Assembly (NCBI RefSeq): GCF_013377085.1
Contig: NZ_JACAAX010000006.1
Location: 62,001 to 126,000 of the forward strand
Direction: 5' to 3'
DNA length: 64,000 nt
Source of the DNA: Rhodoplanes sp.
Lineage (GTDB): Bacteria; Pseudomonadota; Alphaproteobacteria; Rhizobiales; Xanthobacteraceae
This document shows positions 23,110 through 30,267 of this stretch, piece by piece. A model generated the notes under the pieces. The model did no database searches. It saw only the letters and a list, made by a program, of their open reading frames with translations, and had not been told where the DNA came from. Numbering within the stretch: the first letter of the stretch is position 1; each line of letters opens with the position of its first letter. Both the position numbers and the translations under genes were made by a program.

Positions 23110-23134
23110 GGAACCAATCCCGCGCTGCGGCGTT
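23110..23134 (+). promoter_or_regulatory. Sigma-EcfG (general stress response) promoter of the HWE kinase operon
   Basis: GGAAC (23110-23114), 16 bases, CGTT (23131-23134). This is an exact match to the alphaproteobacterial general-stress consensus GGAAC-N16/17-CGTT recognised by EcfG-type sigma factors. It lies 53 bases before the ATG of a histidine kinase gene, in the right orientation. It predicts that the kinase and the receiver behind it are induced by general stress. Confidence 0.7.
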
Positions 23135-23187
23135 AGGGCTGCAATTGAGCATTCCTGCCGGATTGCACCCCCCGTGAAGGCTCCGAA

Positions 23188-24246
23188 ATGGACCCCATTC
23201 TGACGCACGACGGCGCCGTATCGGGTGGCTCGCATTTGTTTGCCGCGTCACGAAAACTGAATTCGTGGAAAGAGATGCTCGATGCACTTCCGGTCGCTGC
23301 CTATCTCTGCGACGGCGCCGGCGCGATCGTCCATTGCAACCGACGGGCGGCCGAGATGTGGGGCCGCTCGCCGATCGTCACCGACGACTCGCCCACCGCC
23401 TGGCCGCCGCGGCCGGTGCGCGACACCGAGCACGGCACGCACCATCTCGGCCTCGTCGACACCCCGGTGGGCGACTTCATGCGGACCGGCCAGCCGGTGC
23501 GCGACCGCGAGATCGTTCTGGAGAGAACCGACGGAGGCCGCGCCGTGGTGCTCGCCAATATCGAGCCGATCACGGGCGACGACGGCGCCGTGCTGGGCGC
23601 GGTCGGCTGCTTCCAGGACATCACCGAGCGCAAGCGGGTCGACCACCAGCAGCGCACGCTGCTCAACGAGCTCAACCACCGGGTCAAGAACACGCTGGCG
23701 ACCGTCCAGTCCTTCGCCGACCACACGATCCGCAAATGCGGCCTGTCCCGCGAGGCCCAGGACGATTTCGAGGGCCGGCTGATCGCGCTCAGCCGCGCCC
23801 ACGACCAGCTCACCCGCGGCCGCTGGGAGCCGATCGACCTCGCGACCATCGTCGAGAGCGCGGTGGCGCCGAGCTGCGGTGGCGGGGCGACCCGGCTGCA
23901 GATTGCCGGCGACGCCATCCGGCTCGGCGCCCAGGCGTCGTTGACGCTCTCGCTGGTGTTCCACGAGCTCGCCGCCAATGCGGTGAAATACGGCGCTCTG
24001 TCGGTCCCGGCCGGCCGGGTGGCGGTGACCTGGTCGGTGGTCGAGCGCGACAGCGTGCCGACCGTCCGGATCGAGTGGGTCGAGCAGGGCGGCCCAGCCG
24101 TGGTCCCGCCGGACCACCGCGGTTTCGGCTCGCGGCTGGTGCAGCACGGGCTCGCCCGGCAGCTCCGCGCGGCGGCCGCGCTTGACTACGCTGCGTCCGG
24201 GCTGCGATGTACGATGGATATTCCATTGTCATCGACGCCGGGATGA
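23188..24246 (+). CDS. HWE-family sensor histidine kinase with PAS domain
   Basis: A soluble sensor kinase of 352 residues with no membrane segment. An N-terminal PAS domain (residues about 28-150) begins EMLDALPVAAYLCDGAGAIV and ends with the PAC-type VLGAVGCFQDITERKR. The kinase part is of the HWE class: the phospho-acceptor box ELNHRVKNTLATVQSFADHT with His164, the N-box SLVFHELAANAVKYGALSVP, the IEWVEQGG motif that gives HWE its name, and GFGSRLVQHGLARQL in place of the usual G boxes. The stop overlaps the start of the receiver gene, so the two should form one signalling pair. The sensed signal is unknown. Confidence 0.92.
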   Translation: MDPILTHDGAVSGGSHLFAASRKLNSWKEMLDALPVAAYLCDGAGAIVHCNRRAAEMWGRSPIVTDDSPTAWPPRPVRDTEHGTHHLGLVDTPVGDFMRTGQPVRDREIVLERTDGGRAVVLANIEPITGDDGAVLGAVGCFQDITERKRVDHQQRTLLNELNHRVKNTLATVQSFADHTIRKCGLSREAQDDFEGRLIALSRAHDQLTRGRWEPIDLATIVESAVAPSCGGGATRLQIAGDAIRLGAQASLTLSLVFHELAANAVKYGALSVPAGRVAVTWSVVERDSVPTVRIEWVEQGGPAVVPPDHRGFGSRLVQHGLARQLRAAAALDYAASGLRCTMDIPLSSTPG

Positions 24247-24638
24247 TGTCGAACGACAACGCAGACCAGTCTCTGCCGAATTTCGATCGTCTGAACGTCC
24301 TCATCGTCGAGGACGAGGCCATCATTTCGTTCCTGATCGAGGACATGCTGCGCGAGCTCGGCTGCAGCACGGTGCGCAATGTCGCGGGTATCGACGAAGC
24401 CCTGACGGCCCTCGACGAGGAGCGCCCCGACGTGGCGGTGCTCGACGTCAATCTCGACGGCGTCGAGGTCTATCCGGTCGCCGAGCGGCTGCGCGAGCGC
24501 GGCGTCCCGTTCGTCTTCACCACCGGATACGGTGCCGACGGGCTGGCGCCTGCCTGGGCCCATATGCCGGTCGTCCAAAAGCCGTTCCGCTCCGAAATGC
24601 TCGCCCGTGCGCTCGAGGCGGTTCTTGCCAAGCCCTGA
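24243..24638 (+). CDS. Single-domain response regulator
   Basis: A receiver domain of 131 residues with no output domain. LNVLIVEDEAIISFLIEDML gives the acidic pocket, Asp68 in VAVLDVNLDG is the phosphorylation site, followed by the FVFTTGYGADG Thr/Ser region and the conserved lysine in PVVQKPFRSEM. It starts at ATG 24243, overlapping the kinase stop; ATG 24246 is equally possible. With no DNA-binding part it probably acts by protein contact or as a phosphate sink, like the single-domain regulators that tune the alphaproteobacterial general stress response. That role is inferred from the upstream sigma-EcfG promoter. Confidence 0.92.
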   Translation: MMSNDNADQSLPNFDRLNVLIVEDEAIISFLIEDMLRELGCSTVRNVAGIDEALTALDEERPDVAVLDVNLDGVEVYPVAERLRERGVPFVFTTGYGADGLAPAWAHMPVVQKPFRSEMLARALEAVLAKP

Positions 24639-24762: not shown

Positions 24763-24790
24763 TTGTCGGGCGCGTGCGAACGACTAAGAT
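24763..24790 (+). promoter_or_regulatory. Candidate promoter of the pentose phosphate operon
   Basis: TTGTCG (24763-24768) and TAAGAT (24785-24790) with a 16-base spacer, 100 bases before the tal-pgi start. It is the best housekeeping-like match in the 251-base gap after the response regulator. No clear terminator or operator is seen in the same gap. Confidence 0.35.
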
Positions 24791-24889: not shown

Positions 24890-27748
24890 ATGACTTCACT
24901 GAAAGCGCTGCAGGCCCAAGGCCAGGCCGTGTGGCTCGATTTCGTCGCCCGCGGCTTCGTCGAGAAGGGCGATCTCCGTAAGCTGGTCGAGCAGGACGGC
25001 GTGCGCGGCGTCACGTCCAACCCGGCGATCTTCGAGAAGGCCATTGCCGGCTCGAACGAGTACGACGATGCCATCCGGGCGGCCCTGCAGGAGCGCGACC
25101 GCAGCGTCGGCGACCTCTACGAGCGGCTCGCCGTCGCCGACATCCAGAAGGCGGCCGACGTGCTGCGGCCCGTCTACGACGCGACCGGCGGCGCCGACGG
25201 CTTCGTCAGCCTCGAAGTGTCGCCCTATCTGGCGCTCGACACCGAGGCGACCGTCGCCGAGGCACGCCGCCTGTGGCGCGACGTCGACCGCCCCAACCTG
25301 ATGGTGAAGGTGCCCGGCACGGCGCCCGGCGTTCCGGCCGTGCGCACCCTCATCGGCGAGGGCATCAACATCAATGTGACGCTGCTGTTTGCGCGGAGCG
25401 TCTACGAGGAGGTGGCCGAGGCCTATATCGCCGGACTCGAGGCGCTCGCGGCCAAGGGTGGCGACGTCTCCAAGGTCGCCAGCGTGGCGAGCTTCTTCGT
25501 CAGCCGCATCGACACCGCGGTCGACGCACTGCTCGAGCAGAAGGCCGCCGCCGTCGCCGACCCCGAGGAAAAGTCGCATATCGAGGAGCGGATGGGCGAG
25601 ATCGCCATCGCCAACGCCAAGGTCGCCTATGGCAGCTACAAGGCGATGATCGCCGGCGCGCGCTGGCAGGCGCTCGCCGCCAAGGGCGCGCGGCCGCAGC
25701 GGCTGCTTTGGGCCAGTACCGGCACCAAGAACAAATCCTACAGCGACGTCCTTTATGTCGACGAGCTGATCGGTCCCGATACGGTCAACACGGTGCCGCC
25801 GGCGACGCTCGATGCGTTCCGCGACCACGGCAGCCCGTCCGCCTCGCTCGAGCGATCGGTCGACGAGGCCGAGGCGGCGCTCGCCGGGCTGGCGCGGGCC
25901 GGCATCTCGCTCGACGAGGTGACGGACCGCCTGGTCACCGAGGGCGTGGCGCTGTTCGCCGACGCCGCCGACAAGCTTTTGGCCGCCGTCGCGACCAAGC
26001 GCGCCGAGGTCTTGGGCGACCGCATGAATCGGCAGACCATCACGGCCCATCGCGCCCTCGCCGAGGCCGTGTCGGCCGAGGCAGAGACCTGGCGCGCCAA
26101 GGGCCTGATCCGCCACCTGTGGGCGCGCGACGCCGGCGTGTGGACCGGCACCGACGAGGCGAAGTGGCTGGGCTGGCTGTCGAGCACGGCCGAGGCGCGC
26201 GACAAGCTCGCCGAATACAAGGCCTTCGCGGCCGACGTGAAGGCAGCCGGCTTCACCGATGTGCTGCTGCTCGGCATGGGCGGATCGAGCCTCGGCCCCG
26301 AGGTGCTGGCCGAGACCTTCGGGCCGCAGCCCGGCTGGCCGCGGCTGCGCATTCTCGATTCCACCGATCCGGCGCAGGTGCGGGCGACCGAAGCCGCCGT
26401 GAAGCTCGCCACGACGCTTGTGATCGTCTCCAGCAAGTCGGGCTCGACCACCGAGCCGAACGTGATGCTCGCCTATTTCCTCGACCGCCTGCGGGCGACC
26501 GTGGGCGACGCGGCCGGCCAGCATGTCGTCGCCGTCACGGATCCGGGCTCCTCGCTCGAGAAGGTGGCGAAGCGCGACGGGTTCCGAAAAATCTTCCACG
26601 GCGAGCCGACCATCGGCGGGCGCTACTCGGTGCTGTCGCCGTTCGGCCTGGTGCCGGCGGCCGCGGCCGGCATCGACGTGGAGGCGTTCGTCGCCTCGGC
26701 CGACGTGATGGTGCATGCCTGCGGCGCCGACGTGCCGCCTTCCGCCAACCCGGGCGTTCGGCTCGGCCTCGTGCTCGGGCTCGCCGCCAAGGCCGGTCGC
26801 GACAAGATGACGATGCTGGCCTCGTCGGGGCTCGCCGATTTCGGCGCCTGGGCCGAGCAGCTCGTCGCCGAGTCGACCGGCAAGAACGGCAAGGCGATCA
26901 TCCCGGTCGACGGCGAGCCGCTCGGCTCGCCGGTGTGCTACGGCAGCGACCGCATCTTCGTCGATCTCAGGCTCGCCGCCGACGCATCGTCGCCGCACGA
27001 CGCCGAGATCGCCGCGCTGGAGCACGCCGGCCACCCGGTCGTCCGCATCGTGCTGCGCGACCGCGCCGAGATTGCGCAAGAGTTCTTCCGGTTCGAGATC
27101 GCCACCGCGGTGGCGGGTGCCGTGCTGGGCATCAACCCGTTCGACCAGCCCGACGTCGAGGCGAGCAAGATCAAGACCCGCGAGCTGACCGCCGCCTTCG
27201 AGGCGACCGGGCGGCTGCCGGCCGAGACGCCGGTCGCCTCGAACGGGTCGTTCGACGTGTTCACGGATGCCAAGAACGCCGAGGCGCTGCGCGCCGCCGG
27301 GGCGGGCAATGATCTCGAAAGCTGGCTGAAGGCGCATTTCGCCCGCATCCGCCCCGGCGACTACGTGGCGCTGCTCGCCTATGTGGCACGCAACCGCTCC
27401 CATATCGGCACGCTGCAGAGCATGCGGCTCGCCGTGCGGGCGCGCCGCAAGGTCGCCACCTGCGTCGGCTTCGGGCCGCGCTTCCTGCACTCGACCGGCC
27501 AGGCCTACAAGGGCGGCCCGGACACCGGCGTCGTCCTCCAGATCACGGCCGACGACCACCCGGACCTGCCGATTCCCGGGCAGACCGCGAGCTTCGGCCT
27601 CGTCAAGGCGGCGCAGGCGCGCGGCGACTTCGGCGTCTTGTCCGACCGCGGCCGGCGGGCGCTGCGGGTCCACATCAAGACCGACGTCACGGCCGGGCTG
27701 GCGGCGCTCGCCGCCGCCGTCGAGCACGCGCTGAGCGCCACGCCCTGA
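24890..27748 (+). CDS. Bifunctional transaldolase / glucose-6-phosphate isomerase
   Basis: A fusion of 952 residues joining two enzymes of sugar phosphate metabolism. Residues 1 to about 370 are transaldolase: GVTSNPAIFEKAIAGS, the Schiff-base Lys140 in NLMVKVPGT, NINVTLLFA and WASTGTKNKSY. Residues about 385-950 are phosphoglucose isomerase, with LLLGMGGSSLGPEVLAETFG (about 460), SKSGSTTEPN (about 514), GGRYSVLSPFGLVPAAAAG and the C-terminal FGPRFLHSTGQAYKGGPDTG. Transaldolase makes fructose-6-P, and the isomerase turns it into glucose-6-P, the substrate of Zwf encoded downstream. Such fusions are known but uncommon. No frameshift interrupts the joint. Confidence 0.95.
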   Translation: MTSLKALQAQGQAVWLDFVARGFVEKGDLRKLVEQDGVRGVTSNPAIFEKAIAGSNEYDDAIRAALQERDRSVGDLYERLAVADIQKAADVLRPVYDATGGADGFVSLEVSPYLALDTEATVAEARRLWRDVDRPNLMVKVPGTAPGVPAVRTLIGEGININVTLLFARSVYEEVAEAYIAGLEALAAKGGDVSKVASVASFFVSRIDTAVDALLEQKAAAVADPEEKSHIEERMGEIAIANAKVAYGSYKAMIAGARWQALAAKGARPQRLLWASTGTKNKSYSDVLYVDELIGPDTVNTVPPATLDAFRDHGSPSASLERSVDEAEAALAGLARAGISLDEVTDRLVTEGVALFADAADKLLAAVATKRAEVLGDRMNRQTITAHRALAEAVSAEAETWRAKGLIRHLWARDAGVWTGTDEAKWLGWLSSTAEARDKLAEYKAFAADVKAAGFTDVLLLGMGGSSLGPEVLAETFGPQPGWPRLRILDSTDPAQVRATEAAVKLATTLVIVSSKSGSTTEPNVMLAYFLDRLRATVGDAAGQHVVAVTDPGSSLEKVAKRDGFRKIFHGEPTIGGRYSVLSPFGLVPAAAAGIDVEAFVASADVMVHACGADVPPSANPGVRLGLVLGLAAKAGRDKMTMLASSGLADFGAWAEQLVAESTGKNGKAIIPVDGEPLGSPVCYGSDRIFVDLRLAADASSPHDAEIAALEHAGHPVVRIVLRDRAEIAQEFFRFEIATAVAGAVLGINPFDQPDVEASKIKTRELTAAFEATGRLPAETPVASNGSFDVFTDAKNAEALRAAGAGNDLESWLKAHFARIRPGDYVALLAYVARNRSHIGTLQSMRLAVRARRKVATCVGFGPRFLHSTGQAYKGGPDTGVVLQITADDHPDLPIPGQTASFGLVKAAQARGDFGVLSDRGRRALRVHIKTDVTAGLAALAAAVEHALSATP

Positions 27749-27766: not shown

Positions 27767-28750
27767 ATGCAGATCGGAATGATCGGGCTCGGACGGATGG
27801 GCGGCAACATCGTGCGTCGTCTGATGCGCAACGGCCATACGGCGGCCGTCTACGACCGCGATCAGCGGGCGGTCTCCGCCCTGGTGACCGACGGCGCCGT
27901 CGGCGCTTCCGACATCGAGGATCTGCTGCGCAAGCTCGAAACCCCGCGCGTCGTGTGGGTGATGCTGCCGGCCGGCCCGATCACCGAGAGCACGATCGAA
28001 ACGCTGTCCGGGCTCTTGTCGTCCGGCGACGTCGTGATCGACGGCGGCAACACGTTCTGGAAGGACGACATCCGCCGCGCCCGCTGGCTCAAGCAGCGCG
28101 GCGTGCACTATGTCGATGTCGGAACCTCGGGCGGCGTGTGGGGGCTCGAGCGCGGCTACTGCATGATGGTCGGCGGCGAAAAGGAGACGGTGAAGCGCCT
28201 CGACCCGATCTTCGCGACGCTGGCACCCGGCGAGGCCGAGATCCCGCCGACCGCGGGCCGCGAAGGCCGCGATCCGCGACCCGAGCGCGGCTATCTGCAC
28301 GCCGGCCCGAGCGGCGCCGGCCACTTCGTCAAGATGATCCACAACGGCATCGAGTACGGCCTGATGCAGGCCTATGCCGAAGGCTTCGACATCCTCAAGA
28401 ACGCCGGCAGCGAGGCGCTGCCCAAGGAGGAGCGATTCAACTTCGACCTCACCGACATCGCCGAGACCTGGCGGCGCGGCAGCGTGATCACGTCCTGGCT
28501 GCTCGACCTCACCGCCTCGGCACTGACCCGCGACGCCGATCTCGGCGACTACACGGGCTATGTGGAGGATTCGGGCGAGGGGCGCTGGACCATCATGGCG
28601 GCCGTCGACGAGGCGGTGCCGGCCGACGTGCTCTCGGCCGCGCTCTATGCGCGCTTCCGGTCGCGCCGCGACCACACGTTTGGTGAGAAGATCCTGTCGG
28701 CGATGCGGCAGGGCTTCGGCGGCCATGTCGAGCCGAAGGCGGGTCCGTGA
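27767..28750 (+). CDS. gnd: 6-phosphogluconate dehydrogenase, decarboxylating (short type)
   Basis: An enzyme of 327 residues that oxidises 6-phosphogluconate to ribulose-5-P and CO2. The Rossmann start [20 protein letters not shown] is clear. Substrate-site stretches are [19 protein letters not shown] and [20 protein letters not shown], with the conserved Lys and His-Asn. At about 330 residues it belongs to the shorter branch (YqeC/GntZ-like, often NAD-dependent), not the 470-residue E. coli Gnd; the cofactor is inferred. It starts 18 bases after the fusion gene with AAGGAGA upstream and overlaps the zwf GTG by four bases. Confidence 0.95.
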
Positions 28751-30267
28751 CGGCAAAGAACGGCGCGCGGGTCGTTCCCCCGGCTGACCCGTGCTGCTTC
28801 GTGGTGTTCGGCGCGTCCGGCGACCTGACCCACCGGCTTCTGATGCCGGCCCTCTACAATCTCGCCGCGTCGGGCCTGCTGCCCGACGCCTTTTCCATTG
28901 TCGGCGTGGCGCGCGCCGAGATGACCACCGCGGCGTTCTGCGATGGCCTGCGAAAAGCCCTCGATCAGTTCGCCACCCGCAAGGTCGAGCCGGCCGTGGT
29001 CGAGCGGCTGCTCTCCTGCGTCACCTATGTCCAGGGTGGCCCGGAGGACGAGGCGTCGTTCGATCGGCTCGGCGAGACGCTCGTCGCCATCGAGCATAAG
29101 CGCGGCACTCGCGGCAACCGCCTCTATTATCTGGCGACGCCGCCCACTGCCTTCACGCCGACCGCCCGCGCGCTCGGCCGCACCGGCCTCGCCCGCGAGG
29201 AGAACGGGGCGTGGCGCCGGCTGATCATCGAGAAGCCGTTCGGCACCGATCTCGCCTCGGCACAGGCGCTCAACCGGGCGCTGCTCGATGTCTTCGAGGA
29301 GCACCAGATCTTCCGCATCGACCACTATCTCGGCAAGGAGACGGTGCAGAATATCATGGTGATGCGGTTCGCCAACGGCCTGTTCGAACCGATCTGGAAC
29401 CGCGACCATATCGACCAGGTGCAGATCACGGTGGCGGAGACGCTTCCGGTCGGTCGTCGCGGAAAGTTCTACGATGCCACCGGCGCGCTGCGCGACATGG
29501 TGCCGAACCATCTGTTCCAGCTCCTGTCGCTGGTCGCCATGGAGCCGCCGTCGCGCTTCGACGCCCGCTCGGTGCGCAGCGAGAAGGCGAATGTGCTCGA
29601 CGAGATTCAGATGATCACGCCCGAGGAGGCGCTGCGCCGCTCGGTGCGCGGCCAGTATCTCGCCGGCCGGGCCGGCCGCGAGGACGTACCGGACTATCGC
29701 GCCACCCGCGACGTTGCACCCGACAGCACGACCGAGACCTATGTGGCGCTCGGCCTGTCGATCGACAATTGGCGTTGGGCCGGCGTGCCGTTCTTCCTGC
29801 GCACCGGCAAGGCGCTGTGCGCCCGTGTCAGCGAGGTGGCGATCAAGTTCAAGCAGGCGCCCTTCGCGATGTTCCGCCACACGCCGATCGAGCATCTCGC
29901 GGAAAACTTCCTCACCGTCCGGATCGCGCCGGAAGAGGGGATTTCGCTGCAGTTCAACGCCAAGGTCCCGGGCCCGTCGATCGCCATCGACGGTGTGCAC
30001 ATGACGTTCCAGTACAAGGATTACTTCGAGAGCGCACCGAGCACCGGCTACGAGACGCTGATCTACGACTGCATGATCGGCGACGCGATCCTGTTCCAGC
30101 GCGCCGACGGGGTCGAGGCCGGCTGGCGCGCCGTGCAGCCCTTCCTCGACGCCTGGCGGCAGGCGGGCCCGGAGGGCCTCTCCTTCTACAAGGCCGGCAG
30201 CGACGGACCCGAGGAGGCGCACCGGCTGATCGGCGATCACGGCCGCCGCTGGCGCCCGGTCTGCTGA
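28747..30267 (+). CDS. zwf: Glucose-6-phosphate 1-dehydrogenase
   Basis: Zwf, 506 residues; it oxidises glucose-6-P to 6-phosphogluconolactone with NADP+ or NAD+. The nucleotide-binding motif is [19 protein letters not shown] near residue 25, and the active-site signature [20 protein letters not shown] contains the catalytic His and Lys. [15 protein letters not shown] precedes it, and [15 protein letters not shown] follows. The start is a GTG that overlaps the gnd stop (GTGA). It stands between gnd and pgl, completing the oxidative branch. A long palindromic repeat follows the stop. Confidence 0.97.

Follow-up and report, generated by a model that had tools for sequence, protein, structure and literature searches.

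Side branches of the general stress response that consist of a kinase and a receiver are already known from Sinorhizobium and Caulobacter. In S. meliloti, SMa0113/SMa0114 and exsFG have mapped transcription starts with σE2 motifs and are described as RpoE2-dependent (PMC3616915); SMa0113/SMa0114 is involved in succinate-mediated catabolite repression (PMC6180224), and SMa0114 mutants overproduce PHB (PMC4581636). In Caulobacter crescentus, LovK-LovR is described as a SigT-controlled phosphate sink that damps the response and may act as feedback control, LovK being assigned to HisKA2 and not to HWE; the same source gives the FATGUY motif as PFXFATG(G/Y) and MrrA as a promiscuous hub (PMC5964349). 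In Sphingomonas melonis, signals pass through a Pak-SdrG-PhyT-PhyR relay whose Paks belong to the HWE/HisKA2 kinases and phosphorylate SdrG as well as PhyR in vitro (PMC5898713), and PakB-PkrB combines a kinase with an associated receiver or response regulator in the stress response (PMC6599016).

Here we analyse a kinase-receiver operon of Rhodoplanes sp. that lies in a 64-kb stretch of contig C56 (64,000 nucleotides, hereinafter designated the window). With it, Rhodoplanes joins the alphaproteobacteria whose general stress sigma factor appears to switch on a kinase-receiver side branch of its own; among the matches listed, the literature on EcfG and PhyR makes no mention of Rhodoplanes. The pair is a new addition to a kind already described, and its distinguishing features are a single non-LOV PAS domain, an FTTGY form of the FATGUY motif, a hairpin that is predicted at the gene junction and conserved, and a linkage to tal-pgi within the genus. 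We favour, with some reserve, the reading that stress induces the operon as an accessory two-component pair of the general stress response of alphaproteobacteria, and that the pair loops back onto this response. Its compact form (one PAS domain, one receiver, a conserved promoter and a distinct second FATGUY receiver) makes it convenient for asking whether such a branch damps the response, amplifies it or feeds into carbon metabolism.

Table 1 Features of the Rhodoplanes kinase-receiver operon and its surroundings (positions in the window)
Feature	Positions	Strand	Basis
Predicted EcfG-type promoter, GGAAC-N16-CGTT	23110..23134	+	Motif match; both boxes identical in 5/5 operon copies
Soluble PAS-HWE histidine kinase, 352 aa	23188..24246	+	ORF, Pfam, motifs
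PAS domain, kinase residues 31-150, no LOV motif	23278..23637	+	PAS_4 match, motif scan
HWE_HK dimerisation/phosphotransfer region, kinase residues 161-242	23668..23913	+	Pfam match
RNA hairpin predicted where the kinase and receiver genes meet, within rare codons of the kinase 3′ end	24196..24243	+	Folding, conservation
Single-domain receiver, FATGUY-like (PFVFTTGYG), no output domain	24246..24638	+	ORF, Pfam, motif
Candidate σ70-like site before tal-pgi, TTGTCG-N16-TAAGAT	24763..24790	+	By eye; TTGT and TAAGAT kept in 5/5 copies
Fused transaldolase / glucose-6-phosphate isomerase, tal-pgi	24890..27748	+	Directly downstream in 5/5 operon copies
6-phosphogluconate dehydrogenase, gnd	27767..28750	+	After tal-pgi in 4/4 named relatives, whose loci end inside gnd
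Glucose-6-phosphate dehydrogenase, zwf	28747..30267	+	Next after gnd in the window; relatives' loci end before zwf

A conserved EcfG-type promoter is predicted upstream of the kinase gene

An initial sequence-only reading had placed an exact GGAAC-N16-CGTT promoter 53 bases before the kinase gene, and the site is indeed present as GGAAC-CAATCCCGCGCTGCGG-CGTT, with 53 nt between its last base and the kinase ATG at 23188. The number of motifs in the window was rejected as a measure of significance, because a single GGAAC-N15..18-CGTT match stands against 1.68 expected on both strands of the 64 kb, and 85 of 100 shuffles of the window contain at least one. A fortuitous match, with the operon expressed by a housekeeping sigma factor, would be in keeping with this expectation of at least one such motif in 64 kb, and also with the estimate that about a third of the exact N16 sites in the genome arise by chance (25 of 70). 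Genome-wide, the 70 exact N16 sites (38 + 32) compare with 25 (14 + 11) for the reversed pattern, corresponding to a 2.8-fold enrichment, while N17 sites by themselves show little excess (26 versus 21) and the two spacings together give 96 versus 46. By arithmetic from the 25 reversed-pattern control matches, a chance site is expected in a given 100 nt of one strand with a frequency of about 2e-4.

Comparison of the operon copies bears more directly on the site. In all five copies, from the window, R. tepidamans, R. elegans, R. serenus and Rhodovulum sp. PH10, the kinase ATG is preceded at 50-53 nt by GGAACCA-N14-CGTT, in flanks that have diverged and align poorly; a close operon copy was not found in a sixth genome of the genus, which is 58% complete. 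The promoter is credible because its boxes are unchanged in all five Rhodoplanes-group copies while the flanks have diverged. Outside these operon copies, an exact N16 site precedes the kinase in five of the six kinase-receiver pairs examined, namely in all four rhizobial pairs and in a pair from another family of the order (L147); the sixth, a second pair of the Rhodoplanes genome on contig C89, has none within the 8 kb covered. The genome-wide N16 excess, the conservation in five of five copies and the sites in five of six other pairs together raise the promoter above chance, and the retention of both boxes and of the distance to the start amid diverged surroundings makes the fortuitous match very improbable.

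The proposal that the operon is an EcfG target is well supported by the conserved boxes and distance and by the genome-wide N16 excess, and the conserved promoter, in a genome that has ecfG, nepR and phyR, marks the operon as a well supported predicted member of the EcfG regulon. Stress that frees EcfG would thus very probably start transcription just downstream of 23134.

The operon encodes an HWE kinase and a FATGUY-like receiver

The HWE_HK region of the kinase scores 88.4 bits against a curated Pfam cut-off of 22.8, and PAS_4 is matched as well. An N-box and a WxE motif are the defining marks of HWE histidine kinases. The catalytic and ATP-binding motifs are intact, with HRVKN at residue 164, HELAANA at 259, WVE at 297 and GFG, and residues H164, R165, N168, H259, N264, W297 and E299 are invariant in the five kinase copies. 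With HWE_HK above its cut-off and HRxxN, the N-box and WxE all present, the protein is an HWE histidine kinase, and from what is known of the family we take His164 in HRVKN to be the phospho-acceptor. Its highest 19-residue hydropathy is 1.42 and no clear membrane segment is apparent, which together with the PAS_4 and HWE_HK matches bears out the description of a cytoplasmic PAS-HWE kinase.

A motif scan of the kinase did not find GxNCxFLQ, the LOV motif, and the NCBIfam LOV kinase model reaches 150.7 bits, below its cut-off of 450. The best two of the four solved-structure matches of the kinase are entries for blue-light-activated kinases (6ph4 and 5epv), matched via the HWE region. The AlphaFold2 model built from a five-sequence alignment (mean pLDDT 57.6, pTM 0.45) is too poor for a fold search. 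Three PAS cysteines, at kinase residues 41, 50 and 141, are invariant in the five copies, and redox or metal sensing through them is possible.

The receiver comprises 130 residues, scores 49.3 bits with Response_reg (Pfam) and contains the phospho-Asp, Thr and Lys motifs. The kinase TGA at 24244-24246 overlaps the start of the receiver gene, ATG at 24246, confirming that the kinase stop overlaps a lone receiver gene. Its most likely start is 24246 or 24243, and a further in-frame ATG lies at 24207. In PH10, where the ATG frame is shifted, the closest start codon is a GTG located one base past the kinase stop. Kinase and receiver would probably be made from one mRNA, with translational coupling suggested by the overlap, and the overlap also makes it quite likely that the two proteins are cognate partners. 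In such a pair, the soluble PAS domain would read an internal cue and the HWE kinase would phosphorylate or dephosphorylate its receiver.

In all five copies the receiver carries PFVFTTGY, which departs from the published PFXFATG(G/Y) by one residue, Thr for Ala. The top two of its 59 solved-structure matches are Sma0114 (9e-27) and SdrG (1.5e-19), both FATGUY members; structure 2lpm is taken here as Sma0114, since its sequence matches the reading frame at L080. In a tree of 40 receivers, the window receiver groups with the four genus copies in a single clade (100/99), whereas the second FATGUY receivers of the genus form another (99/91). The window clade does not group clearly with any of the remaining rows; outside the genus, SMa0114 is the row closest to it by path.

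The stress-response core and a second FATGUY receiver lie elsewhere in the genome

The sequence-only reading had regarded the pair as a satellite module away from phyR, nepR and ecfG, and this is borne out, as the genome has those genes on a different contig, C12. The single NepR gene found is on C12 (by Pfam; the NCBIfam scan returned no family for NepR at 1e-8), and beside it lie an ECF sigma factor, PhyR (NCBIfam PhyR family, 368 bits against a cut-off of 240) and a PAS-HWE kinase; the interval from nepR to phyR holds an exact EcfG site. The C12 sigma factor is presumably EcfG, as indicated by its place next to nepR and by ECF models. The PAS-HWE kinase beside phyR (L039:5836-7710) has an N-terminal ETR1_N domain, ethylene-receptor-like (Pfam, 5.8e-14), an unexpected sensor for a stress-response kinase.

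Seven HWE_HK matches occur in the genome. The window kinase is the only one whose gene is preceded by an exact site at a distance of at most a few hundred bases; the gene of the C12 kinase follows phyR and the EcfG site of phyR, and an HWE kinase on contig C6 has a site about 2 kb upstream. On C89, near 62.7-63.9 kb (L043), an HWE kinase gene is adjacent to a receiver gene in an overlapping frame, and no exact EcfG site was found in the 8 kb around this pair.

A second FATGUY receiver is encoded on C56 itself (C56:135672-136004; L132:4679-4999), 49 kb beyond the pair, with the standard FATGY motif and conservation in the genus. A tblastn search of the fetched stretches revealed no HWE kinase region beside it (the R. 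tepidamans receiver is at a contig end). About 3 kb upstream of this receiver, the same strand carries an exact EcfG site. Of the two receivers, this second one is the better candidate for the counterpart of the SdrG and MrrA hubs. The window receiver resembles these hubs in receiver fold and, but for one residue, in motif, and SdrG is its second-best solved match, but a role for it as the SdrG/MrrA hub of the genome is not favoured, the separate receiver with FATGY being the likely counterpart.

Around FATGUY-type receivers of the Rhodoplanes genome and related genomes, 20 regions were compared, and four of them (L143, L144, L146 and L150) have an exact N16 site in the orientation of the receiver match and 50 to about 210 nt upstream of it. 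A further apparent case of a kinase-receiver arrangement with an EcfG site is L147:3430-5310 (G040:C10), from a different family of the order: here 31 nt separate an exact site from the first ATG of an HWE kinase, and the kinase frame overlaps that of a FATGUY receiver. These regions together suggest that EcfG control of such receivers and pairs recurs.

The pair resembles SMa0113/SMa0114 and lies beside pentose phosphate genes

We take one of the rhizobial loci to be SMa0113/SMa0114 on pSymA, from the 2lpm sequence and from the position of that locus. SMa0113/SMa0114 and the window pair have in common an HWE kinase gene with a FATGUY-like single-domain receiver gene directly behind it, and an exact GGAAC-N16-CGTT site upstream. 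The gene order is common to the window pair and the four rhizobial loci (L080-L083), each of which has an exact N16 site upstream. By gene order and the upstream EcfG site, the window pair appears to fit an SMa0113/SMa0114-type operon. The two differ in that SMa0113 has several PAS domains and the window kinase only one, and in that the receivers are about 48% identical, with FATGY in SMa0114 and FTTGY in the window. SMa0114 is a possible strict orthologue of the window receiver, but the 40-row tree does not group the two clearly.

The other systems are likened to the window pair by description. LovK-LovR of C. crescentus is likewise an operon of a kinase and a single-domain receiver that the general stress sigma factor controls, a control that is predicted for the window pair; LovK, however, is a LOV blue-light kinase in HisKA2, whereas the window kinase lacks the LOV motif and scores higher as HWE. 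PakB-PkrB and exsG-exsF are described as a kinase associated with a single-domain receiver or response regulator in the stress response (PMC6599016 and PMC3616915).

The neighbourhood is conserved within the genus group. An RNA pseudouridine synthase gene lies upstream in all five copies across a gap of 0.6 to 1.9 kb, and tal-pgi follows directly downstream. Of 13 tal-pgi rows from other genera, nine full-length loci were checked and four partial ones (L128-L131) were left out; neither a FATGUY-motif match nor an exact N16 site was found in the 1.5 kb upstream of tal-pgi in any of the nine. The linkage of the operon to tal-pgi is, as far as seen, a Rhodoplanes-group trait and was discarded as a general feature.

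These observations bear on the main alternative, an output branch in which EcfG induces the pair and the pair in turn resets carbon metabolism (by SMa0113/SMa0114-like catabolite repression or PHB control), possibly in connection with the neighbouring pentose phosphate genes. It can draw on the RpoE2 dependence of SMa0113/SMa0114, on the part of that pair in succinate-mediated catabolite repression and on the PHB overproduction of SMa0114 mutants; Sma0114 is also the best solved match of the window receiver and SMa0114 its nearest tree row by path outside the genus, and tal-pgi stands directly downstream in five of five copies, with an exact EcfG site starting 73 nt before it in PH10 (L078:5551). 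The tree does not, however, clearly group the window receiver with SMa0114, the tal-pgi linkage is confined to the Rhodoplanes group (0/9 full-length loci elsewhere), and tal-pgi has a conserved candidate σ70-like site of its own, four of the five copies having no exact EcfG site there. On this balance we hold such an output branch to be possible, though rather unlikely. Because the σ70-like site is conserved, tal-pgi need not depend on the EcfG promoter; its co-transcription from that promoter is possible, and read-through as the main control is not favoured.

The pair may feed back on the stress response

In the favoured reading of a stress-induced accessory pair, the induced proteins would exchange phosphoryl groups with a shared pool, comprising the separate FATGUY receiver and PhyR, and thereby close a loop. 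We consider such exchange an evenly balanced prospect, given the promiscuity that published work describes for HWE kinases and FATGUY receivers; the window receiver may not share such hub-type behaviour, since its FTTGY variant is present in all five copies and the receivers form a clade of their own. The loop might, tentatively, damp the response by draining phosphate after the response has set in, a role likelier than amplification because an output-less receiver is made alongside the kinase, as in LovK-LovR.

An amplifying loop appears improbable. A positive input, in which a Pak-like kinase phosphorylates PhyR or a separate SdrG/MrrA-like receiver and the loop amplifies, finds a parallel in the S. 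melonis Paks, HWE/HisKA2 kinases described as phosphorylating SdrG and PhyR in vitro (PMC5898713), and the window kinase has intact ATP-binding motifs. A dedicated output-less receiver made together with the kinase would, however, compete for phosphate, and LovKR, the worked-out co-operonic precedent considered here, is negative, so that we regard this input as unlikely too.

Both the input half of the favoured reading and the sign of the feedback draw on analogy, with LovKR and with the published promiscuity of FATGUY proteins. Some comparisons count against the favoured reading. The closest characterised pair found, SMa0113/SMa0114, is known for catabolite repression and PHB storage and not as a demonstrated PhyR regulator, implying that the window pair could act on metabolism instead of closing a loop on PhyR. 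The LovK precedent belongs to HisKA2, not HWE, and the C89 pair has no exact EcfG site in 8 kb.

A hairpin is predicted at the kinase/receiver junction

The 3′ end of the kinase gene has an unusual codon composition. Over the last 15 kinase codons the third-position GC content is 0.53-0.67, compared with 0.88-0.92 over the full gene. Up to the kinase stop, 36 of the final 40 nt are identical in the five copies. The 15-codon stretch lowest in third-position GC starts at codon 327 to 330, near the 3′ end, in the four relatives, and lies near the gene start in the window.

For the consensus of the five copies, folding predicts a hairpin of 19 pairs. It is the strongest fold in the sliding scan of the window (z -4.1 to -4.6); in the relatives it is weaker (z -1.8 to -3.7) and is not the top scan window in R. 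tepidamans, R. elegans, R. serenus or PH10. Covariation is thin, with a two-sided change at one of the 19 pairs, kept one-sided changes at two and three pairs broken in one copy each. No second match to the hairpin sequence was found in the genome at up to 3 mismatches. The shape was not seen at the four rhizobial pair junctions (z 0.16 to -2.14, with other shapes; the lowest value is that of L081), and the SMa0113/SMa0114 junction accordingly differs from that of the window in having no comparable hairpin.

A reasonable guess from the folding is that the hairpin couples translation of the receiver to that of the kinase. A more elaborate proposal, which we consider doubtful, is that the rare-codon hairpin sets the kinase-to-receiver ratio of a stress-induced phosphate sink, the receiver being translated only once ribosomes finish the kinase, and that the pair, placed next to tal-pgi and gnd, links pentose-phosphate flux to the general stress response. 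Alternatively, the rare codons at the junction may stem from dual coding, with the receiver starting at ATG 24207; the frame from this ATG is open in four of the five copies, but in PH10 it is shifted and the hairpin sequence is still kept.
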